Positions 1-60,490 of a stretch of DNA of 64,000 nt are shown here, piece by piece. The translations under genes were made by a program, and so were the position numbers. The DNA lies in assembly GCA_017506865.1 (NCBI GenBank), contig JAFCMP010000079.1, forward strand, positions 1,332,253-1,396,252. The letters run 5' to 3'. The stretch's first letter is position 1, and every line of letters begins with the position of its first letter. The stretch comes from Tribonema minus. Its lineage: Eukaryota > Sar > Xanthophyceae > Tribonematales > Tribonemataceae. Under the pieces are notes generated by a model that saw nothing but the letters and a program-made list of their open reading frames with translations, did no database searches and was not told the origin of the DNA.

Positions 1-133
1 AGCGCTCACTGTGGCGGCGACGCTCACAGCGTCTGACCGCTTTCAACCATAAAACACGAGCTGGCAGCGACGCTGACAGCGCGACACCGCTTTCTACACT
101 AAAATCACGAGCTGCAGCAGCAGCAGTGCTCAC
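1..133 (-). repeat. Donor-side copies of an exon edge inside an intron
   Basis: Intron sequence just downstream (minus strand) of the exon that ends at 134. It contains two diverged copies of the exon 3' edge: the exon end reads as GTCGCTGCCACG followed by GTGAGCAC, and similar strings recur near 65-80 and near 5-25, the last again followed by GTGAGCGC. The intervening A/T-richer segment (around 40-62 and 90-112) is also duplicated. This is seen directly. Tandem duplication across the donor site is the inferred cause. Confidence 0.6.
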
Positions 134-2417
134 CGTGGCAGCGACGCGCCCCCCCGCGGGCGCGGTGCGCACGTCCCCCATGCTGACCACCCGGCGCACG
201 AGCCGCACGCCGATGCTGACGCGCGTCGCGCGCTTGGCTGCCGTCGCCGGCCGCGCCTCCGACGCGCTGTCCTTCTCCTCCGTGGCGCTGCTGCTGTCAG
301 CCTTGCTCAGCTCCTCCTCCACGGGGGGCAGCTGCGCCACCGAGCGCGAGCGCGCTCGCCGGTGGCCCATGACCTGCAGCGCGCATGGCGGATTGCGGAA
401 TGGTTCGTCAGAGGGTGGTGGGGTTAGGCTATGCCCTAGTAGTAGTAGTGCGCGCGCTGAGCACGCATGACCTGGCTTGTAACGAAGTGCTGATGGTATG
501 CTGACAACTATTGCTGGGGTTAGGGTTAGCACGCTCGCCGATGGCCGCGCGCCTAATATGTATTATACTGTAGCAAGCGAGATCGTTGGGATTGAACACC
601 TCACGTGCAGTTGCGTCGCGCCACAGAAAAACGGTTTCACTGCAGCATCGCTCAGCTCTTCCGCACCGCGCCCCAGCCTGCTCGCCAGCGGCCTCTATCA
701 CCCGCACGCATCTATACCCTTGTTGTGCTCGAGCCATCGACCAGCCCGATGTTCACAAACGGCAGCCTGACAGTGCGCGAGCGCGCTCTTTCCTCATCAC
801 GCGCAGAATCTGAACGCGTTCAGCAGGCCACGGCGCGCGCGCGCTCTCACCCGCGCCGCCTTGCTGTGCACGCGCGTCTTCTTGTGGTTGATGCCCAGTA
901 TGTCGCGCGCCTTGCGCGGCACGCGCAGGTTGCTGGGCAGTATGGAGTAGCGGTAGGGCGCGGTGCCGTCCAGCTCCCGCACGTCGTACAGCTCGCCCGT
1001 GTCTGCGGCGGCGAGCGGTTGATTAGCGAGCGCGCATGAGCACGGAGGCGCGGGTGTCGGTGGCGCGCGTGATTAATTGAATCAGCAAGCGGGCAGGGTG
1101 GCATTCAGCTCCAGCATATCGTACAGCTCGCCGGTGCCTGCGGCGACAAGTGGTTAATTAGCAAGCGCGCATGAGCGCAAAGGCGCGAGTGTCTGTGGTG
1201 AACACGGTGAGTGAACATAACAAGCGGGCATGACCGTAAAGGTGCAACAGGGGGCTGCGATGGCATGCGCGCTGCGATGAGGCAAGGGGCGCAGTGGTGC
1301 TAGGGGAGTGCAAGCATGTATAAGTGTATCGAAACCTCAAGTGCCTTGGGCGCATTATCGTGTGCATGTTGTGTTGGGTGCTTGTACTTCAGTGTGTGCA
1401 CAGACGCAGAGTGAGGGCCTGCATGCGCGAGACTAGTGCTGATTGCTGCCGCAATCGCCTACAAATCTGAACCAGTTATGAAGAAACACATGGAAGAAAG
1501 CGTGTCACAAAAGGCTTCATGTGCTGATGAAGCGTCAAATCGCAGCTCACCTCTGTTGACGACGGTGTACCCGGTCTGAAACAGAGCAAGCGAAGGCACA
1601 CGGAATGCACAGACAGGAAAGCAGTTGAGCCTTGAGATGCAGTAGGTGTGGCCAACACGTCGGACAAGCGGCTGTACGATTCACAAAGTCACGCTCTCAG
1701 TACAGCACATCGAGGACCATGCAGACAAGTGTCAAGAAAACCGACCAACTCGCCCGCGAGACGTACTGCGCAAGGTGCATGCACTCAGCAAACGGCACCC
1801 AATCGTCTGTATTCACAGATTCTCAGCCGCAGCGCAATGACTCACCTGCAGTGTATCGACGAGCATCTGCTGGTCCAGTCCCAGTATCTTCCTGTTCTCC
1901 ACTACCTTCAGCACACGGGGATCCAGCCATATTTCAGCCAGTTTTTCAATGGGCACCCTGCGTGCACAAGCAACAGCAAGGCTTCATTAGGACCAGCTGC
2001 ACCTGCTTTCAGCACAGGTTTATGCAGCGGACTGACATGACAAGCAAGTGCTGCACAATACTGGCCACTTCACATGGAGCATTCTGAGTTGATGTTGCGC
2101 ATGTTTCGGTGCACAGATTCTGCTGCTTGCCTGTCCACCGCGAAGCCGATGAAGATGGTGCCGTAGGTGAAGGTGGGAGTCCACCCCTTGAGGACGCTGC
2201 TCAGCAGGTCCTCCGGCTTGAACGTGGGTTGCAGGATGACGATGTAGCTGTCCCTGATTTGCTTACCCCACAGCCCCTTGTCCCGCTTCCTGCTGCTCTT
2301 GCGCTTGGAACGATTGCGCCTCGGGGAGCGCCGCTTCGCTCTCTCTGCACTCAGCCTGACCCGCTTTTCGCTTCTGGGAGCGTCGGTGGCCACCATGGTT
2401 GTTGGTGTCTCTGCCAT
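134..2417 (-). CDS. Uncharacterised multi-exon protein, 5' portion (continues past the left edge)
   Basis: I do not recognise the family. Five minus-strand exons fit by splice signal and phase: 2131-2417 (starts ATG at 2415-2417), 1846-1957, 1551-1575, 851-1002 and 134-373. The first intron uses a GC donor (ACAG/GCAAGC); the others are GT-AG. Phases agree at every junction (2, 0, 1, 0). The N-terminus is very basic, with an Arg/Ser/Lys-rich stretch at about residues 14-47 that could be a nuclear localisation or nucleic-acid-binding segment (inference). The middle reads as an ordinary globular domain (for example LAEIWLDPRVLKVVENRKIL, then GELYDVRELDG and a basic HKKTRVHSKAAR). The last visible exon is low-complexity, rich in Ser/Ala/Glu. 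The gene is transcribed away from the kelch gene and its 3' end lies outside the window. The unit could also be two genes, but uninterrupted phase agreement argues for one. Confidence 0.6.
963..1245 (-). repeat. Tandem copies of an exon 5' edge plus acceptor
   Basis: The acceptor-side edge of exon 851-1002 and about 60 bp of its upstream intron (963-1060) recur about 134 bp away at 1097-1197. The copy keeps a CGCCGCAG-like acceptor and reads GTGELYDMLELNAT where the true exon reads DTGELYDVRELDGT, then stops. A third, shorter remnant lies near 1217-1245. The spliced gene does not need these copies. Confidence 0.65.
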
Positions 2418-3880
2418 GTTTTGGGGTTGAAGCTGCAGGACTCACGGAGAATAATCACCGATGCGATGCAGGTGGTGTCACGACTGCTGCACTGCTGCCC
2501 GCTGCTAACACGCTGCTGATACGATTAGCACCAGGCAGTTTCTGTGTGCCTGCTGTCCGTTTGGCCTACAGCGCTGGAGTTACCAAACACTGCTGGCACT
2601 TTCACGAGCAGCTCGTGTGGGCGAGGCCGCTTCAATGCCAGGCGGCGGTTACCCCAAGTGCCAGTGGTTCAACTCGGGCAAACCTGCGGCACAAAAATCA
2701 CACCCAGCGCGTGCTGGGAAGCGATGGTGTCTACAGACTGAGTGGCACGCATCTCCCAACGCAGCTGGGACGTGTATCATGTGGCGCAACAGCTAGCTCT
2801 AGACTAAGAATCACTAGAATCAGCCACTAGTGACCAAAGCCTAGGCGGGGTTGCAGTAGGCAGACCGAGTTAGCGGCAAGAGGTGCATAGCTCTAGCATG
2901 AAACCGCCTGGTAATAGAAAATAGGTGTCTTTCCTGAGGACACACACTACTGCAGCGCGTGAACACACCCACTGGCCCATGGCCATGGTATGCCCGCCTC
3001 GAGGTGTGACAGTCTCAGAAAGTCTGGTATCCGCATTGGGCGTTGCCCTTGGATGATGCTGGACGCAGCGTGACATGACCTCGAGGCTCCCCTGTCGCCT
3101 CTGACTGCAGCAGGCCGACATCAACAACCAGAGCAACAGGCAAGGGGGGGGGGGGGGGAGGGGGCATGAGACCGTGAGTCGCACACTGTGAGGTGGTGGC
3201 ATTGCATGCACCATGTGTTTGATCGCAATCAGATGTGTCATGTCATCAGAAACTTGAGGACGGCCTAGTCGCAGCATCTGATTCACCACCATATGTAGGT
3301 ACAGTACAGTCGCCAATCGTATACAGACGTGGACAAGCAAATGGCTGACGGGACGGTGGTGCGGTATGCGGTTTGATAGTGATAGCGTCCGATCTCAACG
3401 AGCGATGTTAAGGTTCCCTGACAGGCAATACATTTTTCTAAGCATTGCAGTATATTTTTGGGGGAACACTATCTCACTCTTCGCGCCTGACCATAGTTCC
3501 CAAAGTTGCAGGCATAGTGCCTGCAACCATGCACGAGGAAGTATGTGATGAGGAAGTTCAGATGTCTGTGTCTGCTAGCGCATCTGCATCTTGTATTTGG
3601 TGTCAAGGCAGGATCTGTTGACCTAGAGTGAGGTTGGTGATGGGCCACTGATGGCACCAGTGATCAGTAGCAAAAAACATGCTGCATTTCAAATATCCAT
3701 ATGTTGGAGGACCCCCGACAATCTGATGAGATCACCAAGTCTTGTTGATTGCAGCGTCGAGCGAATGAGCGGGCCCTAGATGATTCGTATAATCCTCGAA
3801 GCATTTGTGTCATCAAATAGTGATGCCGCACGCACTGCACGTGCTCAACCATTGCTAGCTGTTGTCTCATCTGGCTCACT
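2418..3880. other. No gene recognised; probable 5' flank of the minus-strand gene
   Basis: No exon chain with consistent splice sites was found on either strand. The stretch next to 2417 is the presumed promoter region of the minus-strand gene. A run of about 13 G interrupted by A lies near 3146-3170. Short open frames here show no recognisable motif. Confidence 0.4.
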
Positions 3881-4046
3881 TACAAGTACTTTTTATTAAT
3901 TCTCGCTCAGGGCGCGAAAAAGCCCAGATGATTGGCATCTAGCTGTAAGGAATCTACATGTCGTATGACAGTCTGAAAGTGTCGCAACGACAACCACTCA
4001 AACGCCGCCGCCGCCAAGTGGCGTCTCGGGGTCCCTACAAGTACTT
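3881..4046 (-). mobile_element. 5'-truncated 3' end of a non-LTR retrotransposon, with target-site duplication
   Basis: About 145 bp nearly identical (a few mismatches) to 60881-61024, which is the 3'UTR plus last codons of the retrotransposon at the right end of the window. The copy is in the same orientation, so the element's sense strand is minus. It is flanked by an exact 11-bp direct repeat, TACAAGTACTT, at 3881-3891 and 4036-4046. Retention of only the 3' end together with a target-site duplication is the classic product of aborted target-primed reverse transcription. The close match implies recent insertion. Confidence 0.85.
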
Positions 4047-7000
4047 AGAGCATGTCCACCGGTGGCAACGTAATCGCCGTCTATGGCGACCCCTTGGAGG
4101 GCCGAGAATTGACGTGTGCACCGAGAATCAGTAAATAGTCGTTGAGCTTGCACTGGCGGCTAACATAACACGCTTCCCCGCAAAAATCTGCACCAGCTGC
4201 GCTTGCTGATGCCCAGCAATTTTGCTCGCAGGACCGCCGTCGCAACATGTTTTGCCAGCGTGCGCTGCTGGTGCAATTTGCAGGTCATTTAGCTCGCTGC
4301 AATTGCCGCAGCCCTATACATGGCGACAATGGGGGTCCAACTTGGATGGCAAGAAAGATAATCGACGCATGACATCAGCCATAGTCGGCGGTAAGTTCGT
4401 GCCGGTGCAGCGGCGCGCCGTGTAACAGCGTCTCTTCATAGCCAACAGGTGCCGCGAGCCAATTAAGTTTGGTGCCGGTGGACACGCTCTTAAGCAACTT
4501 TGGCCTCCTTGCAAATTGTGTCACTGCATCTGATGTTGTGAGGCGTATACATAACCTCACAAAACCGGCACGTTTTGTCAAGTGCACCACAGTCTTCTTG
4601 TATGTGCAACTGCTGCTGAACCCATGTAAGCACCAAGCGAAGCCAAGAAAAATTGTGGCCAATGCAATGAGGGCGCTTCATTGGTGCCCATTCTAAAGGG
4701 TTCCGCCCTCAAGAGGTGGCGTACGAGTCCTGTACGAGTTTTAGTACGAGTGCTTGCGCGAGTAAACAAAACGAGTAATGACTCGCGCCTACCCAACGGT
4801 ATTTTTTTTTTGGTCATAATCGCGCGCAACGAGCTCAGAGTCTCAGACACACGGCTAGAGTGAGAAACTGTGCATGCAGCGTAGTGGTTGAATGCAGCTC
4901 CTGCTTCCATGCAAGAACCTCACCGCCTAAGACGATTGGGTGGTGAGCACAGCCCGGGGGAGGCCTGAAGAGGGCTGGTGAGAGCCTTGCGGGTTTTCGC
5001 CAGAGGAGGAGCCGAGGGGTGGTGCTCGGCAGCGGCCAGCCTGGCTGGGGGACCATGGACCGGCTAGGCTGGAAGGCTGTGGCTGCAGCAGGCACCGGGA
5101 GCTTGCTTTGCTGCCTTGGGCTTCTTGCCACACAGGATCTTTGGGGAGGGTGGTGGTGGCATGGAGCGGCGTTGGCGGAGCAGCCTCGGCTGCCGTCTCT
5201 TTGTCGAAGGAAACTCAGCAGGGGCGGCTCAGGTGATGTTACAAGCAGGCACAGCACGTTATTTCAAGCATCCATCAAGGATCCCACGGCGTGCGGCAGC
5301 CACCCCCTCTGCTGCTGCCGCTGCTAGTTTGAAGTCAGTATTGGCGGCTGGTGTTCCTGAAGCTGGTGTCGTCTTGGCCTACTGTCAGCCTTGTAGATAT
5401 ATACATATCTGTCGTCAGATTTCCCTTGTGTGGAATCAACAAATGATCCAATGATATTTCTGAAATCACACCATTCAGGGCGTTTGGCAGATGCATCAGC
5501 TGAAGGAAAGCTTTTGGACATGTCAACATCTCACGCCACTGCGTGGCTCTGCACTCTGCCGCACCACAGACCAAGTGCTGAGCGCCGGGAGACACTGCAT
5601 GTCTGCTGTCTATCTGGAGGGGGGACCCATGTCGGTGCTGGGGGTTGGGGGGGGCATGGCGCCATGGGAGGGGAATCTGGACGGGACGGTGAGATAGCAT
5701 GCTGTATCGTAATGATGTGCGTATTGTCTTATGCACTGGTGTTGTATCGGAACACCGACCGAATGGTATGCAAAAACACTAGATCTTTGCGACTCGCCTT
5801 CAGGTGTGAGAGGCAGTGTCTGTTCTTGCAGAGAGGGACAGCTGTTTCAAGGCAGTTGCCTCGCAGGCTTTCCTGTACTATACTGGCCCATTATGGTAGC
5901 ATGCGCCACTCGGCATGTCAGGCAAATACTTTGGTGGCAGAGTGTTCATTGCTGACAGTGCGATACACTACACTACATGAATCAAGCAGCCGCACAGCGC
6001 ATTCCACTGAGCCAGGGCTGGCGCCTGAACTGAATCCCTTGCGCCTCCGAGGTTGTGCCAATCAGTAGCTCCGATTGCGCCAGCCAGAGGCCCAACTGAC
6101 CGTGGAGCAACTGGCAGAAGTCGCCATTTTGCTCGCGGTCATTGTTATTGAGTATGTAGTGAGTTTACTTGCGAGTGTTGACTGTGTTAGGGTCCCAATC
6201 AGGATTAGCTCTGGTCTTAACCTTAACCCTAGGGTCCCAATCAGGATAAGCACTGGTCGTACCCTTAATCCTAGCTCTGATGTAAGCGATGCAGGCTCTT
6301 TTCACATATCGTAGAAGCAATACAGGCCCTGTCAGCAGTTGCGCCAGTTGCGGCTTGGCACAATTAGTTTCGCCTGGGCCCAAACCTGAAATCAGTTGAG
6401 CCAAGTTGTTGAAGTTGGGCGCTAAGCACTTCTCAGAGCACAAATGGCATGCCGTTACATTGACACCTCGAATTGAGACAGCGACTACAGGTGCGGCCGT
6501 CACCCCAACAATGCCAAACCTGCAGCTCACTGCTGTCACAAGCTTCCACTCACCGTTAGAGGGGCTGTACCTATCTAGACGTTTGATTACCCTAGGCCAG
6601 CCAGCTGTCACTGAGTTATTAGTTCTTGGCTGATGGACATATTCTTTGACAGAGGGCGGAGGAGCTGCGCACATGTCGTGTAGCCTTGTCCAACCTGGCT
6701 TGCACAGTGCAACCAGGCACGTATTAGTGTACAATGGGTGTGGTGGAGCTCTCGCAGGCAGTATTGACAGCTATGTCAGCTGAAGATAGGGGGGTAGTTG
6801 ACCCTTCTGCAAATGTCACACGAGGCGACTGTCTCCCATGGTCCTCCCACTTAACTGCCCGTTTGCTTGCCCACTCCTGTCATATAGCTGCGGCAGCCTC
6901 TTCGCTACGACCACACCAGGTGGCAGGGCTTCAGTGTCGCCCACTGTCGTGTTGCTGCTATTTCGCTATGTGCGATGCCACGCGCCAGTGACGCGCCGTA

Positions 7001-10200: not shown

Positions 10201-13200
10201 GCATCATTACATACCTGATGGTTGAATGACATGAGCTGGTACCCGTTCCATGTTGAAGTGGCATGCATACCCCTGGCTCTCTGCGACAGCAACAGCCAGG
10301 CCAGCAACGCTCCGCGCAGGACAGTACCTGCACCTCCAGTCACTGCGTCCCCAATCACTACACGCTCATTCATGTACTCATTCATTCACGCATTCATGAA
10401 TTCATCCATGTGGCGGAACTCCTGTAACAATTCCGCAGGAGGGCGTGACGCAGGCCGGTAAGGTGTCGGTGACAAACGTGCTGGTGCAGCGCCTGCCGCA
10501 GCGGCGCTTCGACATGTTTCATTCATTCATACATTCATTTGCGCATTCATGAATTCATCCACATGATGGAAACCTCAACAGAAGGTCTGACCCTCAACAG
10601 AAGGTCTCGGTCACTCCTCTAACAAATCCAGTATTTGCGTTGCTGCGCGGCGTTCGCAGGAGGGTGTGACGCGGGCTGGCAAGGTGTCGGTGACGAATCT
10701 GCCGGTGCAGCGCCTGCCGCAGCCGCGCTTCGACATGTCGTCGTGCTGCTTCAAGCACATCTGCGTGTTTGCGGGTGGGCAGGTCAACCTGGACGGCTAC
10801 TTCAGGTGCGCACAACTTGCAGTTGTGATGTGGCGAGCTGGCTTTGTGCAGAGCGATGGGTGCGGAGGCCTCGCAACGCCGAACGCCGCGTCAGCTGAGC
10901 ACTGCGTACTTAATCAGAGCACGCTGACGTGTCAGCTTTAGCTGCACGACTGAGCCATGCGCGCTCGTGGACTGATCAGTCCAAAAGCGAATGCTTGAAG
11001 CCTGAGCACTTGAACATTCCGCTTGAAGTTTGGCTCGCTAGGTCGGGCACTGTGATCTCATTGTTTCAGCAGCCGCATGGTGTGTGGAACGGCGAGTGCT
11101 GCGGCTAGATATCAAATCAGGAGCCCTTGTGATGCTGCGTGCTTAGAGTTGCAGCACTTGATCTTGCTGCCTGAAGTTTAATCGTTGACGTGTGGAACGA
11201 CGAGCGCTGGGGCCTGATGTCGGACCACACGCAGTGGGAGCCACAGTGACGCTACGCACTTGAAGTTGCAGCATTTGGAAAGCCTTCCCTACTGTTTGGC
11301 TCCAACTTCAAGGCTCTTGCACCCCCTCGCAACTGCTGCTGCTCGCCGCAGCGACCGCGTCGACGTGTGAAACGGCGAGCGCTGGGGCTGAACGTCGGAC
11401 CACATGCTGTAGGCGCCACAGTGACGCTACACACTTGTACTTGCAGTACTTGAAGTTACAGTTCAGCAAGTTTGTGTTGACGTATGCTGACTAATTGCAC
11501 ACAATCGCTGCTGCACGCTGCAGCGACCGCGTGGACGTGTGGAACGGCGAGCGCTGGGGCTGGACGTCGGACCACACGCTGTCGGAGGCGCGCTTTGGCA
11601 TGGGCACGGCGTCGCTGGAGATGGCCCTGGCGGACGGCGTGGTGCACATGGTGGGGTTCTTTGCGGGGGGCGTCGGGCGCGCGGGCAACCTGTTTCTGGT
11701 GGACCTGTACGACTTTGCCAGCGACAGGTGAGAGGGGGGAGGGTAGGGGCGGGCGTAGGGGCGGGGCTGCGTTGTGAAGAGCATGCGGCCGCTTTACTGA
11801 TGGCTGTCTTTGAGGCAATGGATTGATGGCCGTGCGGCGACTCGTTGCTAACTGGCCTCTACGACTGTGTCAGCATTTTGTCAGCAACAGCGAGAGGGGG
11901 TCGGGTGGGGGAGGGGGGTAGGAGTGTAGCGGAGTGCGCTGGTGGAGTGCGAAGCGCTTAACACAGCTCAGCGGCTTGGCCTAACACTGCAATGCTCAGC
12001 GATTTGTGCTTTGCACACCCGGGCGTCGCATGTGTGCTGCAATCGCGAGGCAGAAGCCGAGCTTGGCATGGCACCTGTGTCTTTTGTGGTATCATATACT
12101 GTATCATGTACGGCTGTATCAATGTCTTAGCACTGGTATGGGTGCAGGTTCCCCAGTGCGTGTTGCAATGGCACATTGCGCCAGAGAACGAGCCGCTGTG
12201 GAAGCAATCATGCCGAGGTGCTTTGTACCGGACACAGTTCAAGCAAATAAACAGAACTGGAGGGCGTGCTGCACCGTGCTTAAACATGCACCAAGACGCC
12301 AGCAGTCATATACCACCAATGTCCACCACTTCCTTTTCGACACCAACTCCTAAGAACATTGATGATCGTGAAGTGTACAAAGTACCAAGGGTGTAGCTTG
12401 CATTGCGTTTGCAAGACTTGTCAGCCATGCGTGCAAAAGACATGAGCTAGCGTGCACTGCCGCGGATTCACAGGTGGCTGCCGCGCATATACCTACCCAC
12501 GGTGCGGGGGAAGTGCTCAGGCGTCACGCTGGGCATCGACGCAGCCATGTTCATTGCGGACACCGGCGAGGTGGACGTCTTCAACTCCACGTCGCTGTGC
12601 TGGACGTCCTACAAGGTGCGTCACTTGAAGTTTGTGGGTGTGAATCGCGAATGCCGAGCAACTGCATTTGCTCGTACATGCGCGTGCTGAAGGCCCTCAC
12701 CGGTGCATCGTCCTTGTGGAGAGTCGATGTAGCACTTCTTCATCAGAGAAGTTATCCTACGCCCAAGCATAGTTCACCCAATGCGTGCAACATCAGCCGA
12801 CGCAGCGCAGCCACAGTGCAGCCCGCCCCTCAGTGTTTAGATGCTCGAGCACAACACCCAACTGTTTCTGCATTCCAACTTCAACTTGAACATCACCGAA
12901 ACCGCTGCTCCCGGTGATGCCCAGCCTCCCATTTCATCTGCAAGCTCTCACTGAGTGACGTGACACCAACTTCAACTCCAACCTCAACCATAACCCGCAG
13001 CAGCACTGCGCCCGGCGACGCTCAGCGCCGCCACCGTACTCCCCCCTCTCTCTGCGCGCACGCCAACAGCTGGACGGCATCGCCCTCGGCGCGGTGGCGG
13101 CGGGCGCGCGCCGCAGTGGTACCTTGACCCCGACGCGAGCGGCGCGGCACCAACTTCAACTCCAACTTCAATAGATGCGCTGCGCCTGGCGATGCTCAAC

Positions 13201-13634
13201 ACTGTCCAACTTTGCCCCCTCTCTGTGCGCGCCGACAGCTGGACGGCATCGCACTGGGCGCGGTGGCGGCGGGGCGCGCGCCGCAGTGGTACTTTGACCC
13301 CGACGCCACGGCGGGCGGCGGCAGCGGCTACTACCGCTCCGGCGGGGGGGCGCCGGAGGGGCTGGCGTACGTGGCCGGGGGCATCTGGGGGGCGGCGCAC
13401 GGGCTGAGCAGCCAGCTGACGGAGCTAACGTGAGTGGCGCGTCGCGAGGCATTTAAGTGTATGTTGAGGTTGATGGGAGTTGAAGTTTGGAGGTGGAGCT
13501 GAGCGTTGCGTCTCTTGGGTAGTGGGCGCTTGCTTGTGAGGGGGGTGTTGAAGCATGCAGGTTTGACGCATCCGCTGGAGGCCCCTATATACCACCGCAG
13601 GCAGGAGGGGGCGGTGGGTGGGGCAAAGGCTGGG

Positions 13635-13670
<36 letters not shown>

Positions 13671-16600
13671 CACTGGCACAGCAGCCAGCCAGCTGACCAT
13701 GTTTTCATCAGTCTGGTGATTCTGATGGTGATAGAACGGGGCGTCGCAGGCTGCCTGTCCATGTGTTGCACTTCACTGCCTTGGCCGTTTCAACTTCAAC
13801 TTTGCTGCCCCACACTTGCGCAACCGCCAAATGCGGTACGCCTGTCTGATCGTCTCGCATTCAACATCCGAGCAGTGCCATGTTGTGATAGCGTAATCCG
13901 CTGATCAGCGTACGCTGGCTTGTGCCCTATATGACTGGATGCGCAAGCCTGCCGCCTGCGCGTGTGGCGGCTCTAGACGTGATGACAAATTTCTCACATT
14001 CGTGCCGAGCTGAAACTGACTGCAAATTTCAACAACGCTTGGTGAACGCGCAGGTGGGAGCTCGACAGGGGGGGGCAGATAGTGCCCGGGGAGCCTCAAA
14101 TTGGTGAGCCATCATCATGTTGATGCTTGTGTGCTCAAACTTAGTTGGCACAGAGTAGGTATCAGAGCCTCGCTGCCTTTTGTTGGAGCGGTGGCATTGA
14201 TCAACAAAGCATGAACTGCGCAACCTACAATGCGCGGCTGCCGAGAACTGTGCCAGCATACGTGAACCTCTATAAATTATGTCGCATCACTTCATGTTCA
14301 GCCTACCTAAGCGCGATTTTAGGGTTAGGGTTAAGTGTTCAGTGCCAGGGCTACAGCCGCGACTTGTGCACGGAGGCATGCTTGCCCCTTGTGCAGGTGC
14401 TTGTGCCCCGTATCAGTCAAAAACTCGACCCGATTTCCCCATGCTCACGTCACCCTGCTGCTCCCTCTTCAATCGTAAAGGTTAGCCCTCATGCAGTCCC
14501 GCTGCCTCGCATTGTCTGCGCAAATGCCAGTTGAAAAGGTCAGCCCTCATGCAGTCCCATTGCCTCGCATTGAAAAGTTCAGCCCTCATGCAGTCCCATT
14601 GCCTCGCATTGTCTGCGCAGATGCCAATGAAGAATATCAGCCCTCATGCAGTCCCACCGCCTCGCATTGTCTGCGCAGATGCCACGTAAGAATGTCAGCC
14701 CTAATGCAGTCCCGCTGCCTCGCATTGTGCGCGCAGATGCCGGCGCGTGCCGCGACGCGCTGTCCATGCCGCTGGCACCCGTCCAGATGCAGTGCGGCGC
14801 GATGGGGGGCGGGGACGTGCTGGGCGCGTTCAAGAACCCCCTGGACGTCGCGCCGCCGCCGGCAAAGCCCGTAGCGGATCCGCCGGTGAGCGCGCTCTGC
14901 CTATACTTCAAGTAGATGCTTCAAGCACATGCTCTGATTACAGCATGTGTGCATACACTGCTAGTGTGTGTGTTCAAGAACCCCCTGGACATCGCGTCAC
15001 TGCCGACAAAGCCCGTAGCGGATCCGCGTATACGTGCACTACATATGTATATACTTCAAGTACATGCTCTGATTACAGCATGTGTACGTACTACTAGTGT
15101 GTATGTATACACAGCAGTTTTGCAGAAGAATCTGAAGGATTACAATGAACGCCTAACCTGGTATCGCTCGCTGTTGAACTTGAAGTCTCGAGGACTCGCC
15201 CATGCGTCAGCCATAGTTTGTGATATTCTCAGTAGTTGCATCGGGACAGCCGGCGGGCAAAGCGCTATGGTGATGTGCAGGCGAGCACTACATCAGTTTG
15301 GGATGAACAGCACTTTCTGCAGTGCGCCAGTAGCATGAATTAGCCCGAGCTGCAGTCGAAGGCCACCACGTGCCTTAGGGGGGGGAGGGGGGGGGCAGGG
15401 TAAACGGGCGTCATAGACCCCTCTGTTCAAAGCGAGGGTGTCAGCTGTTCCTGGGTGCTCGACATTACGCGTGGGCATGTGCACCGCATTTGCCAGAGCT
15501 GCCCTGCCTGCTACTCGCCTGAATGCATTAAACTGAGGCCAGTCTGCGTGTTGGACGTGCCGTGCGCTGCTTTCTTCAACAGGTTGTGCCCTCAGCGGTG
15601 CCGCCGCACAAGGATGGGTCCATGTGGCCCTCGGGGCTGGGGCCGCGCACGCGCGTGGTGAGCACCCGAGATACTGTATGTATCCTTACCTTTGAACCTC
15701 ACAAGCGTAACGAGATGCGCACGCTAAGACGTTGGTGCGAACGACGCCGCGCAGCTGAGCCGTGGAGTCCATTTACCGGGGATGTCGTATTGCAGATTCA
15801 CGTGGTGAGCACCTGGTATACTATAGAAGTATTACTTCTGATGTGCATATGTATTTCATGGGTTCATCGTGGTGCACACGCTGAGGCGTCGGTGCTCACT
15901 TCATTTCCTGGCAAAACGGATGGTGATATGATAGCACACCACATGCTGTGTGACAGTGCTCCCTGTTTGGCGGCATCGGCTTGCAGATGCTTTCGCATCC
16001 GTGCTTGCATACTGAGATGACAATGGGCATCATTATGTGTCGCTGGCAACGGCAGTGCTGTGGGGCGCTCGCACGTCCCCCACACTTACACTGGCAGTTG
16101 CACGTCAAACCAGGTGGTGTGCACCTGATTATCGCGGCGTTGCCGCTGCTGGTGTCGTACACTGTGTCAGCAGCCATCACCTTGACAGTTACACTGACAG
16201 TTACATGCTTTGCGCTCCTCGCACCAGGTGGTGTACCTAATGATCGCGGCGCTGGCGCTGCTGGTGTCGTACATGGTGTCAGCAGCCATCATACTGCGGC
16301 GGACGGAGGGCATATGGCGGCTGCCATTTGGGGGCGGGGTACTGGATGCCCTGCACAGGGCGTTGGCAGGTACGCTGGGACTATGGCTTGGGGAGGGGTA
16401 GAATCTCATGTACCTGCCAACTTCACGTTGCCATTGGCAACTATGTCAGGCCACCAGTCGCCCAGGCGATTGTGTTCTGCGGAACAGTTGGCGCTATTAT
16501 TCAACTTGGTGCTTTTGCAAGCATCTGTGTCGCTCGCGCCTGCGGCGGCAGTTGGTGCGCTGCCAACCTCACTTTCCCATTCCCAGCATCATCAAACCAC

Positions 16601-18103: not shown

Positions 18104-18184
18104 GCCCGCAGTTCCAGTGATTCGACGCGCGTCGATGCAGTATGGGCGCTGTGCACGCACGCACGCAAGCCCACAGAAGAATGT

Positions 18185-19476: not shown

Positions 19477-19637
19477 AGTACTTTTTATTAATTGTCGCTC
19501 AGGGCGCGAAAAAGCCCAGTTGATGGTGTACATAACTTGATGCTGCTGTACGGAATCTGCATGTCGTGTAACTTTTGAAAGTGTCTCAACGACAACCACT
19601 CAAACGCCGCCGCCGCCAAATGGCATCTCTAGTACTT
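19477..19637 (-). mobile_element. Older 5'-truncated retrotransposon 3' end with target-site duplication
   Basis: Homologous to the same 3' end as 3881-4046 and 60876-61024 (shared TTTTTATTAATT, CGCTCAGGGCGCGAAAAAGC, ACGACAACCACTCAAACGCC), but more diverged, with a small insertion near 19525-19545. Flanked by AGTACTT at 19477-19483 and 19631-19637. Confidence 0.75.
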
Positions 19638-41168: not shown

Positions 41169-41218
<50 letters not shown>

Positions 41219-46399: not shown

Positions 46400-46560
46400 C
46401 GGCGCGCGCGCGCTGCGCCGCTTTGACTGCTTCGAGTGGGTGACGCGCTCTCTGCGGTCAGGCTCTCTCTCGCTCTTCGAGGTCAGGCTACGGCACGGCC
46501 GCGGCGTGGCGGCATGTGCGCTGCAGAACTTTGACCACTTCGAGTGGGTGGCTTCCCCTC
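46360..46560 (+). repeat. Tandem duplication over the 3' end of the Cys-rich gene
   Basis: The segment CTACGGCGCGGCCGCGGCGT ... GACTGCTTCGAGTGGGTG at 46378-46443 recurs at about 46488-46550 (CTACGGCACGGCCGCGGCGT ... GACCACTTCGAGTGGGTG), offset about 110 bp. A looser third copy may lie at 46635-46700. Confidence 0.6.
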
Positions 46561-48017: not shown

Positions 48018-49903
48018 ATGCCGACCTACTACGAGATGATCAAGGACGCCATCATGGCTCTCAAGGACCGCTCTGGCTCTTCCCCTGCCGCCATCAAGAA
48101 GTAAGGAACGGAGCTCTCCACCTCTCGTGTGCAATGTGGCAGCTGGCTTTTGCAGGATGCTCTCGAACGCCAACACCCTTCAGAACCACATGGCTGGCAG
48201 CCTTGGCAACCATCACGTCGACTGTCTCATCCGCTCTCCGTGCTTACTTGTGACTGATCTCAGGTACATCGAGGCCAACAACAAGGACCTCAACTTCGCG
48301 CAGCACTCTCTCCGCATGGCCCTCAAGAAGGGCGTGGAGTCTGGCAAGCTCATCAAGATCAAGGCTTCCTACAAGCTGGCCGACTCTGAGAAGAAGGTGA
48401 GGCCAGGCAGCTCTTGTTGGTGTGCCCAGCCCTCAGTGTTGGCGTAAAGTGCAGCCTCTCGTTATGTCTGCGTTCCTCCCGACGGCTTTTTTGTCTTGCG
48501 CCTGCTGTATGGACTTGCCTCTATCACCACTGGTGTTCTGCATCATGCTCTTGCTGTATTGTAACATGATTTGCCGCACTCCCAATCAAATTATGGTGGC
48601 TCATTCACTTGTTTCGTTTTTGTGATTCCACGTCGCAGCCCGTCAAGAAGGCCTCTCCCCCCAAGGCGGCCCCCAAGGAGAAGAAGGTCAGTGGTGTTTA
48701 CACATGACAGCATTGTTGATTCATTGTGTATTTTTCAATGGGCGTGCATGACTTGACATGTGCTATCTGACGTCAGCGCTTTGATCTATCTCACATGAGC
48801 TTAATTATTTCCTTGCAACTTGTTTCTTTTGTGCAGGCCGCGGCTCCCAAGAAGGCCACCCCTGCGAAGAAGCCGGCAGCCAAGAAGCCGGCAGCCAAGA
48901 AGGTGAGCAGTTTAATTGCATGTCAGTTACGCATTGCATGCTTGGATATCACAAGGTGGGCAATTTATTTGTTTGATGAGTGTCGTATCGCATGTTTGAT
49001 GAGTAATTTCCAGCCTGTCCCAAGTCATGTATTGTTTGCTTGATGTCTACAAGTAACATGTGCACTTAATTTGTTTGATGACTGTCATGCATTGTATGCT
49101 TAACGAAGTAATTTTCAGTCCCAGTCATGCGCGTCCGCAATGATGCCTGCCGCCAACGCATGTTCCGCCTCACCCTGTTGTCCTGTGACTGCCTTCTGTC
49201 AGCTTTCAACATGCACACTTTTTCTCTTTTACGCCCCGCAGCCCGCCGCCAAGAAGGCCACCCCCAAGAAGGCGGCGCCGGTGAAGAAGGCCACCCCCAA
49301 GAAGGCCGCTGCCCCCAAGGCGAAGAAGGCAACCCCCAAGAAGGCCCCTGCCAAGAAGCCTGTGGCTGCGAAGAAGCCCGTGGCAAAGAAGGTATGTACC
49401 GAGTTTTGATTATGGCTTGAGCGAGCGGGTGCGAGTCTTCATTCATAGAGTTGTCAATGCCGATCACATTTTGGCTGGTGCTAGTTAGCAGTGTTGCTAG
49501 GAAGTTCGCAGATGGTTCGCTTGCATTCAAGAGATATTTGATGCTGACCACAATTGGCTGGCGCTGGATAGCAAGTGTTGCCAAAAAGTTTGCAGATTAT
49601 TGGCGTGTTGAACCCCCTCAAAAGTTGTGTTTACGGCACTATGTAGTACTGAACTATGTATGTTCTTGGCACAGGCAGATTTTTCTTGCTCCTTGTGTTG
49701 AATCACCATTGCAGCATACCCATTTTCCCTGCTTTCCAGCTTTTGACACTCACTGCATTCTCTGTGCTCTCTTGTTTGCGCAGGCTCCCGCAAAGAAGCC
49801 CGCTGCCAAGAAGGCCGCTGCCCCCAAGAAGGCCCCTGCCAAGAAGCCTGCGGCCAAGAAGACCAAGGAGGCAGCCGCGCCCGCTGCCACCGAGGCCAAG
49901 TAA
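48018..49903 (+). CDS. Linker histone H1
   Basis: Six exons: 48018-48100, 48264-48396, 48639-48686, 48837-48902, 49242-49391, 49784-49903 (TAA); 600 nt, 199 residues. The first two exons encode the winged-helix globular domain: it opens [18 protein letters not shown] and continues [14 protein letters not shown], then [18 protein letters not shown] and [11 protein letters not shown], the standard H1/H5 pattern. The rest is a Lys/Ala/Pro tail of AKKPAAKK- and TPKKA-type repeats that binds linker DNA and compacts chromatin. There is almost no N-terminal tail: the globular domain starts at residue 2. The first intron is phase 2 and all four tail introns are phase 0, each falling after a Lys-Lys pair. 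Metazoan H1 genes usually lack introns; plant and algal ones often have them. Confidence 0.95.
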
Positions 49904-55255: not shown

Positions 55256-55289
<34 letters not shown>

Positions 55290-55482
55290 TACCTACCCTG
55301 CGGGCCCCCCCCCAACCGACACCGCCACGACGAGCACATCGAGCGGGGTCACCAGCGCCGAGCGGCCGTACAGCACGGGCAAGGGCTACATGAGCGCGAG
55401 CGAGTCGCCGACGAGTCTCATGGGCGGGCCCACGGATAGCCCCGTCGGCGCGCCGCCGGCGCTGGGGGGGGTGCGGGGGTAG
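52247..55482 (+). CDS. Thr/Ser/Pro-rich mucin-like protein, 3' part
   Basis: Five exons, every internal junction phase 1: 52247-52408, 52872-52958, 53551-53769, 54149-54343, 54950-55482 (TAG). They encode at least 398 residues of Thr/Ser/Gly/Pro repeats: TTSTTTTGTG, PPSPGTTTNSYGTG, ATFAPTAVPVGSYG, two copies of STSTAGVPYTPPSS, and a run of ten Gly near the end. Exon 54149-54343 is different: after a Thr-rich start it encodes SSVFCDGPPYSQPEIDAMTN followed by a Lys/Arg-containing helix-like segment with two Cys, so it may be a small folded domain. Such sequence is expected to be heavily O-glycosylated and extracellular, but no signal peptide was found because the 5' end is missing (the first exon listed enters in phase 1 after a TAG acceptor). 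Symmetric phase 1-1 exons allow free duplication and skipping. Confidence 0.65.
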
Positions 55483-55487
55483 AAATT

Positions 55488-55606
55488 GGGGGGGGGGGGG
55501 GGGGGGGGGGGCAGTTTGCGGCAGTTGCACAGGGGGGGAGGGCAGTTTGCGGCGGTTGCACGCCCCCCTCCCCACGCCCTGGCAAGGGGGGGGGGGGGGG
55601 GGGGGG
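55488..55606. repeat. Paired 24- and 21-nt poly-G runs after a stop codon
   Basis: Runs of 24 G (55488-55511) and 21 G (55586-55606) begin 5 bases after the TAG of the Thr-rich gene. Between them GGCAGTTTGCGGCRGTTGCA occurs twice. Likely G-quadruplex-forming and unstable in length. Confidence 0.85.
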
Positions 55607-57637
55607 AAGCAGGCGTTATGAGTGGCGGCGGCAAGCGAGGTGAGGTGCGGAGCGTCGCATTGTGGAGGTGTGCAGAGCGGCGTCGTGGACGTTGCTTGAA
55701 GTAGAGTTGAGGCGGTGCTGGCTTGCTCCTCTTGAGCGGCTGATGGATGGATGAACTGTTCCTCACAGCGGATTCACTTGCGATTGCCTGCACCAGCGCC
55801 ACCGGTGGCCTTCGCGAAGTGCTGTTTTGACCAGAGTTGTTGACATGTAACTTTCCATGAGGCCCATCATTTACGTATACCAGTGCGTTCAACCATGCAT
55901 CAGACACAAGAAACAGTTATCAGTGCGATGTTACCTTTTGAGTTTTAGTGTGTTCTGCATCATGGCGTGCCATACGACCGTGACTGCAGCCACGCCTTGA
56001 TCATTCACTGACCACCGTATGCGCGTCTTCTCGGATATGCAGGCAGCCATGTACCACGGGCCCTCGACCACCCAAATGCCAGGGCAGCTGGGGTGATGCT
56101 CATCAATTGCCAAACTGCCCAAGGGCTGCTGCATCACCATCCCTGCCCATGGCATAGGATACATACAGCAATTGCAAATCTCTCACCAGGCCCGTCGTCA
56201 TACGGTTGCTCGGCAGGCGATTCCGCTGCCGAGCATGTGTTTTATGCATACATACTGGTAGTAATGGCCACGACTCTTGCAACTCTTCAGAAGCAAACCT
56301 GCGATGATGCTTTGCACTCTGTTCTGCTGTGATCTTGCCCCTTTTTATTTCTGAAAAAGCAAGTTCATGTCATGCTGTGTATCTCAAGCACTCGCCTGTA
56401 ACGATCGAAGAACCGTACATGTACCTGGCTGTGTGGCAATACTTTGAAGTGTCAATAAACGTACTAGAGCATAATGTGGCAGGAAATACATCCATTAGAT
56501 CATCTGAGCCCGCATGGTGCTCTAAGTGAGATGGCGAGCAGGCAGACGAGCGAAAACAAATACTTGGTAGTACGTGTCACATGAGTGTAGTGTCACCATG
56601 AGTGTAGATCAGCAGTGACTTGCCACTCTGCCACTGGACGCCAAACACAAGTGATTCAGCTGTGACACTGATGTTACCAACCTTACTAAAGGCTGCTCCA
56701 CTTCTTTGACACTTTTGAAAATGATGGAAGGCCTGTGCACAAATGTCTTCAACATCCACGAATGTTGCAGCACCTGCCTTCGAGCCTCCCCGCAAAGCCA
56801 TGCGGTTGTACGTGTCATGGCTCAGCTACGAACTTGTTTTTTTGGACTTCTTAAGATGAAGTAGTATGTAGGCGTCGATGCACATTGGAAGTGCACATTG
56901 GAACTCCCTGCTACACTTGAGGTTACCACACGGGCACAAGAACACAGTTCACTGATGATCATCAGTCTACCAAGCTGGTCATTTGCCTAAATGAGCCGTT
57001 GTGATTTCTCAGACTTTAAATGCCTCAGGAACTACTTTGAACAAAGTATTACAAAGCCACAGCCATGCAAAAAAGGTTCAACCCTGAATGCACGCCTCAG
57101 TCACCGTCTGAGCATGCTCTCAGGCAAAAAACTCGAGTGAACACGGGTTGTGCAGAAATGCCAACGCCACACCATCAGACAAGAACAACCACTGTAACCA
57201 ATCATTCTGCACACCATCCAAATGTCTGCCCACCTTCAGGGTGCGGGAAGCCCCATCGCACAAGATGGCACTTGCCAGGTTTGCCTGCCAGCAATGGCTG
57301 ACTTGCATGAAATCATTCATGGCCACCATGGGTACACCAGCATGTACCATAGTGACATTGCCAACAACACCCAATGAGAAAACAGCAACAGAGGTGAATG
57401 GTGAATGGTACCACCGCCCTTTGTCAATCAGCGAGCAAAAGAAGTGCAAGAAGCCATTGAGGGGGTCACCATTGCTGGCCAGCGAGAATCAGCAGCCCAG
57501 GATTCCACCAACACGCCGACCTGCCTGATGAGATGCGCGAATCAAACTGGTCACCCCGCGCAGCGGGCAACGACTGCGAACGCGCTTGCTGTCCCTCAGG
57601 GAGTGCCCATTACAAGTAACCCCAACGCATACATCAC
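55607..57637. other. Lower-GC segment with unplaced protein-like fragments
   Basis: Minus-strand frames at 55931-56164 (encodes WAGMVMQQPLGSLAIDEHHP onward, ends at a good donor AAAAG/GTAACA), 56577-56801 (starts MALRGGSKAGAATFVDVEDI) and 57120-57449 look like real coding but could not be joined. At 57150-57528 the plus strand is also open and plausible. The segment is A/T-richer than its neighbours and may be a decayed mobile element or an imported gene. Confidence 0.25.
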
Positions 57638-58304
57638 CTACTTTGTCATGAACACACGCACGCTACCAAGCAGCACCCGTAGTGCGCCACACGCGCTTCT
57701 GTCGCTGCCCCCACGTTTGCCGGGCCAGGTGCGTCGCCTGCCGCTGCCGCCGATGCTGAGCAGTGCTGCCATCAGTCCGCGCACGGCAGCCTCCTCAAAA
57801 GCGCGCCGCTGCCGTAGCTGCAACGCAGACAGCACACACCACGCTTCTCCCTCCTGGCGACCACTCCGCCGCCCAAGTCTAGTGCAGGCATTGCAGCATT
57901 GGCGGAGAGGCCGCCTCTGCGACACGCGGGGGGGGGGCAGCCATTGCGCACCGCTCCAGCCAGCAGTCACCACGGTCCGCGTTCAGCTGGCACCAGGACC
58001 AGTCGTTGCGCCCCCAGCAGCCCCTGTGAAACATGCCCCAGGCAGTCGTCGGCGGCTCCCATCCCCAAGCAGCGGCGGCCACGTTACGTGCGTTCCAGCT
58101 CTGCAGCGCTCAGCTTTGCCGTGCTCCACTCCCAGGCGAAGGTGTCGCTTCGTCCCGGTGACACTCCCGCGTCCTCCGGTCGGCAGGTGACACAGCGCCG
58201 CGGCAAGTGACACCACCCCTCGGCTGCAGCTCCAAGCTCCGCCTCCTACCAGCTGACCGCACCTGCCGTGAAGTGCTGTGAGAAGCTCCCGCGCCAGCGC
58301 TCTA
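57638..58304 (-). CDS. Uncharacterised protein, C-terminal exons
   Basis: Three minus-strand exons join with matching phase: 58263-58304 (2 in, 2 out), 58088-58223 (2 in, 0 out) and 57638-57817 (0 in, TAG at 57638-57640). They read RALARELLTALHG, then GVVSLAAALCHLPTGGRGSV and a basic segment, then LRQRRAFEEAAVRGLMAALL and a short Arg/Gly-rich end finishing VRVFMTK. No family recognised; mixed helical composition. The 5' part is not resolved. Another open frame on the plus strand covers much of this region, but it is Pro/Ser/Arg low complexity and lacks splice support. Confidence 0.35.
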
Positions 58305-59010
58305 CTGCATGTTGGCTCTACAGCACGCACGCTCCCCCCTTTGCCGCTCGCCGAAGCGGCACGCAAATGTGATGATTATTAAGCCGGCAGCGGGTGGGCT
58401 GCCGAGGCATGGACAAACGCCATCCCGACCCCGAACATGAAACCCCTTACATGCCCCCCCTTCCCCCGCGACAACCCCCTGCCCTGCACACAGCTGTCCC
58501 CCAGCATCCCTGCAGCAGCAGCGGCATAGTGGCAATGATCAGAACAGTATCGTACCCCCGTACCACGGCACCAAGACAATGCTGCATGCGAGGGCGCCGC
58601 GCCGCGGCAGTCCGTGTTGCATCGTATGGTGCGTCACTGACTGACGTACGGCTTTGCCACGGCTGGTGCGACAACACGCGACCGAGGAGCATGGACATAA
58701 ACGTCGCATGTAACAGTAGTGCGTGTCTGGTGGTGCGGTGACTACATAGCGCGCAAAATGAACCATCTTGCAGTCGTTTCAATGCTCAACAGGGCTGCAA
58801 GCAGCTCTTCCCTTGCTGCCACATCGTGCTGACGGTGCACGTTGGCGGCCAGTATGTTGCTTACATCAAGTGGTTGTCCATGATAATGGTATACAAACCT
58901 GCCCATCAATGTCAAGACGGACAGCCACTGCCTAACAGCATGCGGCGATTGACATGCACCTCACCTGAAAGCCCCCTACTCCTTGCCCCATCTCTTGATC
59001 ACTCCCTTAG

Positions 59011-59244
59011 ACTCCCAAGCGGCCCCAGTCCAGACACTCCTGCACTCCTGCTCCGCTACTTTCAACGGCATCTCGGGCGAGTTAATAAGGGCGCTGGTAC
59101 TCCGCGCGTCTGTCCATGCGGCCGCCCATATGCCGCTCGGGCCCATATGGCGACACGGGGCGCTGGGGCACGATGATGGGCCTGTGCAGATGCGAAAAGC
59201 AGCAGCGGCAGTGCGCGCGACAGTGCAGCGGGCGGTCAGCACAG
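59011..59244 (+). CDS. Isolated candidate exon, unknown protein
   Basis: A 234-nt plus-strand exon, acceptor CTCCCTTAG, donor ACAG/GTGCAA, phase 1 on both sides. It encodes SCSATFNGISGELIRALVLR and then a His/Ala/Arg segment ending VRATVQRAVSTG. No family recognised and no partner exons found. The opposite strand is also open over the same interval (58976-59311), so the strand call is not secure. Confidence 0.3.
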
Positions 59245-59512
59245 GTGCAAGGGGGGGGGGGCAGGCGAGGCGCGCGATGATCATTGATGGTGTGATGGTA
59301 TGAGAGACCACCGCGCGTACAGTGGTGACCCTGATGTACTGTTACAAGTTGCTCACCGACAACTTGGAGCTGTTGTGATGTACATTGTTGAAGTTTGATA
59401 CCAATTTCAAGTGGCGTCCGCTCACGAGAAAGCAGCTGTGCGCAGCGCACAGAGAATGTCGCGAGTCGGCAGCACCAGCACCTGGCACGTGATCAGCGAG
59501 GCAACGTCATAA

Positions 59513-60375
59513 TCCTGACCTATCCCTGATCCTAATCTTAACCTGACCCTGACCCTATCCTAACCTAAGGTGGTCCTAACCCTGGGCGTACCTGTCGGAC
59601 ACGACCAGCTGGCCGGGGCGCACGGGCGTCGGCGCCTTACTAGCCCTAACCTAACCCTAGCCCTAAATCTAAGCTAAACCTAACCCTAATTCTATCCCAA
59701 TTCTGACCCTGACCCTCACCCTAACCTACCCCTAATTTTAACAGGGCGCACAGGCGTCGGCAGCGCCACCTTGAGCGTGCGGCCCTCCAGCCATCGCGCA
59801 TCAAATTATCCATGTCGCGGGGGGGGTTATTCAGCCAAATAGCCCCCCCCCCCCCCCTCCCAAGCTATTCAACAGGGAGAGGGCTATACACGGGTGAATA
59901 CGGTAGGCGTACCTGTCGGACACGACGGGCTGGCCGGGGCGCACGGGCGTCGGCGGCGCCACCTTGAGCGTGCTAACCTAACCCCAGTACTAATTGTGAC
60001 CCTAGGCGTACCTGTCGGACACGACCGGCTGGCGGGGCGTACGGGCGTCAGCGGCGCCACTCGTAACCCTAAGCTAACCCTCATAATAACCCTAGGCATA
60101 CCTGTCAGACACGACCCTAATTATAACCCTAGGCGTACTGTCAGACACGACCGGCTGGCCCGGGCGCACAGGCGTCGGCGGCGCCACCTTGAGCGTGCGG
60201 CCCTCCAGCCATTGCGCATCAATAATCGATATCAGGGGGGGGTGATTCAGCCAAATAGCCCCGCCCCCCTCCCCGCAAGCTAATCAAGGGGGGGAGGGGG
60301 ATATATACATCCCTTGTCACTTAGAGCTCGACGATCTTTTTGATTCGTTTTTCATATACGGATGAATACGGTAGG
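59513..60375. repeat. Telomere-type repeats interleaved with partial copies of an RRM exon
   Basis: Blocks of CCTAACC/CCCTAA-like repeats (59513-59575, 59640-59735, 59980-60000, 60063-60095) alternate with partial copies of the exon 3' edge at 60381-60455. Copies start with GGCGTACCTGTCGGACACGA at about 59585, 59909 and 60006, with shorter or altered ones at about 60095 and 60131; some reach the GGCGCCACCTTGAGCGTG phrase. A larger unit (ATTCAGCCAAATAGCCCC, C-run, AAGCTA-TCAA, then GGTGAATACGGTAGGCGTAC) is duplicated at 59797-59920 and 60208-60380. Confidence 0.8.
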
Positions 60376-60380
60376 CGTAC

Positions 60381-60490
60381 CTGTCGGACACGACCGGCTG
60401 GCCGGGGCGCACGGGTGTCGGCGGCGCCACCTTGAGCGTGCGGCCCTCCAGCTCCATCTTGTCAAAGAAGCGGATGGCGTCCTTGGCGGC
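60381..60490 (-). CDS. RRM-domain exon (RNA-binding protein, partial)
   Basis: A 110-nt minus-strand exon with acceptor CTGCTGCGCAG and donor GACAG/GTACGCC. It encodes AAKDAIRFFDKMELEGRTLK and then VAPPTPVRPGQPVVSD. That is the second helix and last strand of an RNA-recognition motif (A..AI..F/L..GR.LKV). A preceding exon ending at about 60584 may supply RGCAIFANTKCATLQ, which fits an RNP1-like octamer only loosely. The Pro-rich linker after the domain is reminiscent of PUF60-type splicing factors, but this is a guess. No further exons were found: retrotransposon sequence begins at 60876 upstream and decayed copies lie downstream. This may be a gene remnant rather than an active gene. Confidence 0.5.

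Follow-up and report, generated by a model that had tools for sequence, protein, structure and literature searches.

Intron growth is usually attributed to transposon insertion. We find that many introns of the xanthophyte Tribonema minus have instead been lengthened by tandem copying of a short stretch around an exon edge, splice site included. The nearest precedent is the potato RdRp gene, in which a tandem duplication crosses an intron-exon boundary (PMC4974935). In the passages of that report compared here, the duplicated unit lies across one intron/exon edge and carries its splice signals, as in T. minus, but a single locus and a new intron are concerned, whereas in T. minus 26 of 84 arrays show the arrangement and it is an existing intron that is lengthened. 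Within-gene duplications cited in PMC3443670 and PMC4974935 likewise include intron pieces, although the portions of the citing texts that were compared mention neither an edge-centred excess nor intron growth. According to excerpts on AGGT-type intron gain from exon segments (PMC3443670, PMC2891723), splicing silences a tandem duplication, a property shared with T. minus, where, however, the intron pre-exists and a new AGGT pair is unnecessary. In the two genes compared on this point, no new intron was found: the copies lie inside introns, and the published T. minus protein models P0121 and P0127 join the flanking exons without them. The PRODH model P0001, if real, would be an exception. The small tandem duplications that arise when break ends are filled in (PMC8355091) are head-to-tail like those of T. 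minus, whose joints may similarly lack long homology, but the passages compared do not mention splice junctions.

Two further classes of repeat differ from the T. minus copies. Introner elements would be expected to recur among loci, but inter-locus repeats make up 0.8% of intron sequence up to 50 nt from a junction, and the one copy-bearing intron tested (15660-16225) has no genomic match beyond its own locus. Minisatellites or VNTRs consist of many near-identical short units, whereas the T. minus arrays hold 2-8 copies, most of them 2-4, with a median identity of ~79% over 134 events. Patch-mediated duplications in rice are reportedly related small tandem duplications. Among the literature matches listed, as far as their excerpts extend, none reported this pattern from Tribonema or an excess centred on exon edges.

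Exon-edge copies in the window and beyond

We analyzed 247 kb of T. minus, comprising 57 kb of the window (a 64,000-nt stretch of contig JAFCMP010000079.1) and 19 ten-kb stretches, six of them from the window's own contig, with exons and introns assigned by an ab initio gene finder trained on the sample itself. Window positions 57001-64000, including an array at 59577-60452, were left out before counting because the sequence is retroelement-like, and repeats with a strong period below 10 were removed. Local direct repeats with a raw score of at least 38 numbered 247 at offsets of 15-1200 and 18 at offsets of 1200-2385, compared to 0 and 1, respectively, in one dinucleotide shuffle. In all, 84 tandem-repeat arrays represent 134 events. 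Head-to-tail duplications spanning a junction account for 26 arrays and 44 events, and in these arrays an exon edge is copied into its intron; 29 arrays are intronic and 14 intergenic. Unit offsets are mostly 60-250 nt (median 125-134 nt).

The original prediction named twelve window loci at which an exon edge and its splice site had been copied into the intron, and nine of these show the exon edge and splice-site region copied. On the minus strand, the acceptor edge of the g1 exon at 851-1002 (gene model and copy pair) is copied in locus 963-1245, where the unit 956-1063 (47 nt of exon and 61 nt of intron) recurs at 1091-1198 with an offset of 135, 81% identity, and an intact splice dinucleotide. 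The other exon-edge copies described here lie on the plus strand, many of them in the main gene, where the published model P0121 matches every edge-copied exon (10660, 11524, 13239, 14710-14885, and 16228). Here the acceptor side of exon 10660-10805 is copied at 10366-10518 (locus 10372-10740), with 10434-10517 resembling 10655-10738 at 89% and 10366-10418 resembling 10519-10571 at 81%, and exon 11524-11727 is preceded by three decayed acceptor-edge copies at 11067-11520 (locus 11080-11420). The acceptor-edge copy of exon 13239-13429 at 12953-13144 (gene model and copy pair; locus 12961-13238) contains a mini-exon of the first gene model (13070-13105) that is missing from P0121. Exon 14710-14885 is copied at both ends: four partial acceptor-edge copies form an array at 14477-14709 (locus 14478-14745), which P0121 takes in part as coding, from ~14640 onward, and a donor-edge copy of the unit 14828-14971 lies at 14972-15106 (copy pair; locus 14828-15110). 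Exon 16228-16369 has an acceptor-edge copy at 16109-16179 with 88% identity (locus 16036-16227). Outside this gene, a copy pair and a junction probe together identify a donor-edge copy of exon 31985-32111 at 32285-32427 (unit 32066-32203, 83%; locus 32066-32440) and an acceptor-edge copy of exon 42866-43176 at 42598-42717 (locus 42665-42720).

Three predicted loci fared less well. At 42182-42320, the junction probe recovered a weak donor-edge copy (27-30 nt) of exon 42038-42219, 27 nt at 42295-42321. At 1-133, there is a period-50 tandem array (12-118, unstranded) in the intron beside the g1 donor at 133/134, but its link to the exon edge is unconfirmed, and probing the donor at 133 found no above-threshold copy in 1-133. 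The supposed acceptor-side locus 27771-27905 holds a 30-nt direct repeat (27779-27896, plus strand, copy pair) that is wholly intronic in this gene model. An additional array at 46377-46550 (plus strand, copy pair) covers a small exon and its acceptor with an offset of 110 and 80% identity. No Rfam family reached its gathering score in the window, and Pfam gave no family for g1, g3, g6, or g9.

The pattern recurs outside the window, as predicted: in the 19 other stretches, 18 of 64 arrays copy an exon edge, confirming that the copying is real and extends beyond the window. The proposal of intron growth was likewise borne out, with copy-bearing introns having a median length of 776 compared to 248 for the others (318 overall). 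A visible copy is present in 43 of 225 introns, and redundant copies make up 11.7% of intron bases. Crossing arrays per junction grow with intron length, from 2 on 104 junctions in introns below 150 nt to 9 on 112 in introns above 500 nt; this rise is contained in none of the null models used and counts against our preferred explanation.

Duplication density around exon edges

The premise that ordinary tandem duplication should have no preference for junctions proved half right. Units are large relative to introns, so that many would span a junction even without targeting. Considering only crossing and intron-only arrays, by unit length and with one event per array, 25 of 54 intron-touching units span a junction where 39% are expected (p=0.27); a second one-event-per-array count gave 26 of 55 (p=0.21). 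Looser counts show an excess, whether over all events (43/84, p=0.013) or any event of an array (33/56, p=0.0036), while counts of strong and similar pairs (12/16, p=0.0031) and of pairs with identity of at least 80% (16/28, p=0.032) are not relied on because the conserved exon half inflates identity. A 3.4-3.7-fold junction excess over uniform placement was dropped, because it was calculated from the length of the alignment and treated each copy within an array as a separate count.

Density nevertheless piles up at exon edges, as had been predicted. The 16.6 kb lying no more than 20 nt from a junction hold 23 arrays; the 45.3 kb of intron farther than 100 nt from one hold 13, and the 93.7 kb of intergenic DNA hold 16. 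The near/deep-intron density ratio is 4.84 (bootstrap over loci, 2.5-10.2); it stays at or above 3.9 when any one piece is left out and is 4.0 (2.2-7.7) when only the 19 outside stretches are used. The edge/intergenic ratio is 8.1. Even intron-only units lie closer to junctions than uniform placement would have them (KS p=0.040 for the 22 arrays lacking crossing events). Unit density thus peaks at the exon edge and drops toward deep intron and intergenic DNA, an unexplained excess that depends on the ab initio gene finder and on 84 arrays.

If duplications fell at random positions, exon-internal units were purged, and detection favoured the conserved exon half, junctions would be nothing special. 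Such uniform duplication with survival accounts for the spanning share, which 11 of 34 simulations equal or exceed, and it suits the geometry of a ~130-nt offset in introns with a median of 318 nt. It is already strained by the present data, however, since in simulations run with rates of our own choosing 0 of 57 reach the edge/deep ratio of 4.84 (maximum 3.51), and the edge/intergenic ratio pooled over 16 simulations is 1.04 rather than 8.1. A mismatch remains in the number of events per array, which is higher in the real data (134 in 84) than in the simulations (e.g., 154 in 130), and the longest runs called more sequence intergenic than the real data do. Taken together, we regard this account as unlikely.

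It is similarly doubtful that exon-proximal DNA merely looks hot because deep introns and intergenic DNA were inserted too recently to have collected duplications. High-copy 150-nt repeats with 93-99% identity do occur in the window's non-coding DNA, but inter-locus repeats cover 0.5% of intron at 100-250 nt from junctions, 1.8% at more than 250 nt, and 1.0% of the intergenic sequence, compared to 0.6-0.8% nearer the exon, a comparison of low power. Moreover, young arrays (identity of at least 85%) number 20 in genes and 2 in intergenic DNA.

We consider it quite improbable that duplication is simply common in GC-rich, transcribed exons, with edge-spanning units alone surviving. A sixfold exon excess partly reproduces the edge/deep ratio (mean 3.0, maximum 4.93 in 7 runs), but the crossing share that it predicts is 0.69 (0.59 in the lowest run) against a real 0.46, and the exon part 0.62 against a real 0.38, which is also under the uniform model (mean 0.53, 7 runs). 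Unit GC is not above background either, at 0.571 versus 0.577 for intron-only and 0.493 versus 0.533 for intergenic units.

A proposed model of silent duplication and one-sided decay

Our preferred reading, to which we assign a probability of about 0.75, is recurrent short tandem duplication that is silent as long as the outer splice site is retained, together with an exon-edge excess that it does not explain. In this model, short stretches would be duplicated repeatedly in the gene bodies of T. minus. A unit lying over one exon/intron edge would leave the mRNA unchanged if the spliceosome picked the outer copy, i.e., the 5'-most donor or the 3'-most acceptor adjoining the intact exon, while the other copy, with its exon piece and splice site, would turn into intron and decay freely; repeated rounds would lengthen introns stepwise. 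The edge peak could reflect duplications that arise more often at exon edges or that are kept more often there. The predicted selection for a usable outer splice site fits these data, but alone it leaves the pile-up unexplained. Tentatively, tandem duplication in this lineage may have a mutational hot zone at junctions, e.g., through transcription- or splicing-linked breaks or nicks; with duplications silent by construction, such a zone would act as a ratchet that lengthens introns genome-wide and supplies spare splice sites and exon pieces.

The tandem arrangement and the exon-derived copies in introns are directly observed. Head-to-tail joints are readable in seven nearly complete units, with aligned length minus offset of at most 2 in six and the seventh gapped; old copies blur their joints. 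Such joints may have formed by fill-in of breaks or nicks with end joining. Among crossing pairs, taking one event per array, exon columns are 0.881 identical (1425/1618) and intron columns 0.823 (651/791), and pairing the two within all events with enough columns gave p=0.024 over 21. Exon columns therefore decay slower than intron columns, i.e., decay is one-sided. The prediction that copies decay with distance from the exon survives as a weak trend: of 27 junctions probed, 12 have at least two copies, and at 8 of these the nearest copy is the most similar. The splice dinucleotide is intact in 26 of 32 copy events, and the copies are therefore not visibly silenced. That they are alternative exons or splice sites retained for regulation is very improbable: although these intact dinucleotides, the use of two copies by the published PRODH model, and crossing-event offsets divisible by three in 24 of 44 cases would favour it, the distance from copy site to real site, one per array, shows no significant bias to multiples of three (12/27, p=0.23, on which a frame bias of the offset was dropped), the copies decay, and the lipase model omits them.

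Returning to silent duplication, intron growth by this route is directly readable and roughly datable through the one-sided loss of identity in exon copies. An edge peak that persisted across the whole genome would let mutation be separated from survival and would offer a system for studying how breaks form at splice junctions. On the practical side, decayed copies confuse gene models, with copy sequence annotated as coding.

Published protein models illustrate both outcomes. The lipase model P0127 joins the 5'-most donor to the next exon and lacks the intronic copies, so that the outer donor is used as far as this model goes; for the remaining copies we infer the splicing behaviour. Copy sequence is taken as coding in two of the three published T. 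minus models compared. Because P0001 and P0121 carry it, there may be real use of some inner splice sites, or an annotation error at them. In P0001, two additional 14-aa copies form part of the coding sequence, and the corresponding PRODH motif is single-copy in the transcript-derived P0002 of a relative and in two brown-algal proteins.

Sample and extent of the copying

Our sample covered 247 kb, ~0.16% of the 158-Mb genome of T. minus, a xanthophyte placed in the PX clade of the ochrophytes; besides the window, it comprised 19 ten-kb stretches on 14 contigs, six of these stretches being from the window's own contig. All gene models were ab initio, produced by a hidden-Markov gene finder that started from a rough codon model and a rough splice consensus and, after label-free retraining, settled on a donor of the GTGAG/GTGCG type with GCAG as the acceptor; comparison with published proteins covered three genes. 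Local direct repeats were detected by self-BLAST, with 247 above threshold in the real sequence versus 0 in the control, a single dinucleotide shuffle. Tandem pairs were removed singly, retaining the copy with the better gene model, and units were placed on the re-annotated collapsed sequence; the last 7 kb of the window was excluded from the collapse and from unit counts.

This stepwise collapse yielded 84 arrays (loci of tandem copies) and 134 events (copy pairs). Taking one event per array, 26 crossed an exon/intron edge, 29 were intronic, 14 intergenic, 12 exonic, and 3 mixed; at least one crossing event was present in 33 of the 84. Where the real junction was mapped (27 arrays), the copies lay on the donor side in 16 and on the acceptor side in 11. 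Removed copies made up 11.7% of intron bases versus 4.0% of intergenic bases, and in 43 of 225 introns such copy amounted to 30 nt or more, with a median length of 776 nt for these introns versus 248 nt for the others. The offset was 60–250 nt in 89 of 96 tandem events. Counted by junction, crossing arrays numbered 2 on 104 junctions of introns <150 nt and 9 on 112 of introns >500 nt.

With growing intron length there were more crossing arrays per junction and also more intron-only arrays per kb, and both trends persisted once visible copies were removed. The large copy pair of highest similarity in the sample, a 375-nt tandem duplication at 97–98% identity, takes in the end of an intron plus some exon sequence at 2515–3264 of stretch L013.

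Density of copies at exon edges

The original prediction held that duplication favors exon/intron junctions, and this was supported for the density of unit centers but not for the strict share of spanning units. Geometry predicts that 39% of intron-touching units span exactly one junction, and 25 of 54 did so (p = 0.27; 25–26 of 54–55 arrays under three alternative gene-finder settings), so junction-spanning by itself is no argument for favored junctions. Looser counts gave a significant excess (43/84 events, or 33/56 arrays if any event counts), and 11 of the first 34 uniform-plus-survival simulations matched or exceeded the real crossing share.

Unit centers, in contrast, pile up at exon edges: 23 arrays in 16.6 kb lay within 20 nt of a junction versus 13 in 45.3 kb more than 100 nt into introns, an edge/deep density ratio of 4.84 (2.5–10.2, bootstrap over loci); intergenic centers numbered 16 arrays in 93.7 kb. 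The ratio stayed at or above 3.9 with any single piece omitted and was 5.3 once small internal exons were erased. It was 4.0 (2.2–7.7) in the 19 outside stretches by themselves; the pattern recurs beyond the window, as had been proposed. In the 22 arrays that lack a crossing event, intron-only units lay closer to junctions than uniform (KS p = 0.040), and crossing units extended little into exons, by a mean of 0.38 of what was possible (KS p = 0.02). As a null, sequences simulated so that duplications fell uniformly, were filtered for survival, and decayed neutrally (sets of 7, 13, 14, 7, and 16 runs) were passed through the same pipeline and gave a mean ratio of ~1 and a maximum of 3.51, at rates of our own choosing and with fewer events per array than the real data.

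The edge density may reflect a mutational hot zone at exon edges, or it may come from a filter by survival or history. Duplication at a sixfold rate within exons comes near the observed ratio when simulated (mean 3.0, maximum 4.93), but it overpredicts crossing units (share 0.69) and sends them too deep into exons (0.62 predicted versus 0.38 observed). The evidence speaks against dilution alone, in which insertions thin out old sequence and make exon edges appear dense: of the young arrays (identity ≥85%), 20 lie in genes and 2 in intergenic DNA, although their edge/deep ratio of 3.3 comes from 6 versus 5 arrays.

Origin and fate of the copies

As read from the sequence, the copies are shown to originate by tandem duplication. 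In seven nearly complete units the joints are head-to-tail, and in six of these the extra matching does not exceed 2 nt. Such joints resemble break-end fill-in and end joining as presented in PMC8355091, a likeness that may hint at that route without proving it. R-loops or RNA-templated repair, suggested at the outset, would be a speculative cause. Tandem duplication is a genuine route of intron gain according to a review (PMC3443670; also PMC2891723), and one case crossing an intron-exon boundary is described in PMC4974935. The portions of the literature reached by our search held no genome in which boundary-crossing duplications broadly lengthen existing introns and peak at exon edges.

In crossing pairs, taken one per array, columns comparing exon with intronic copy were 88.1% identical versus 82.3% for intron-versus-intron columns, and the within-event medians were 85.7 versus 81.8 (21 events, p = 0.024), as would be expected if the real exon were constrained and only the copy drifted. 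The splice dinucleotide was intact in 26 of 32 copy events, near a neutral expectation that we estimate at ~69% for 83% identity. Where a junction had more than one copy, the nearest was the most similar in 8 of 12 cases.

Published gene models and other repeats

The three genes compared with published proteins were not random, being the window's main gene and two picked for copies visible in the predictions. In the lipase gene (stretch L016, contig C70), the gene finder took exon-end copies for additional exons that are absent from the published P0127 and from homologues P0128, P0129, and P0131; the published exon stops at the 5′-most donor. Use of the outer splice site is thereby shown in this published model, and we infer it for the other loci. 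For proline dehydrogenase (stretch L007, contig C79, the window's own), the published P0001 holds two additional 14-residue copies; one motif copy is present in P0002, a transcript-derived protein from a relative (92% identical), and in two brown-algal proteins. At 2686–3087 of this stretch, two copies of an exon end, decayed or alternative, are counted as coding in the published model. The gene finder split the window's main gene into two models (g2 and g3), and some exons differ from the published P0121, which matches those exons that have copied edges. Two copy exons called by the gene finder are missing from P0121, which takes part of the copy array upstream of 14710 as coding.

The window also carries dispersed repeats. 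One of ~150 nt at 3884–4034 occurs in at least 30 places at 95–99% identity (40 of 323 candidates scored), several of them in close pairs and some inverted; we read it as a probable small mobile element of recent origin. A second 150-nt repeat, at 19478–19629, has at least 39 further places at 93–95% among 40 scored of 1269 candidates, and a composite at 4043–4495 joins two adjoining blocks that at six or more other sites recur paired but apart. A linker histone H1 gene (PF00538) lies on the plus strand at 48018–49899, its lysine/alanine/proline repeats spread over several predicted exons. On the minus strand, a Pfam search of a long open frame at 60988–63570 returned no family; we take this frame to resemble the end of a retroelement protein, and the nearby array at 59577–60452 was excluded from the counts.
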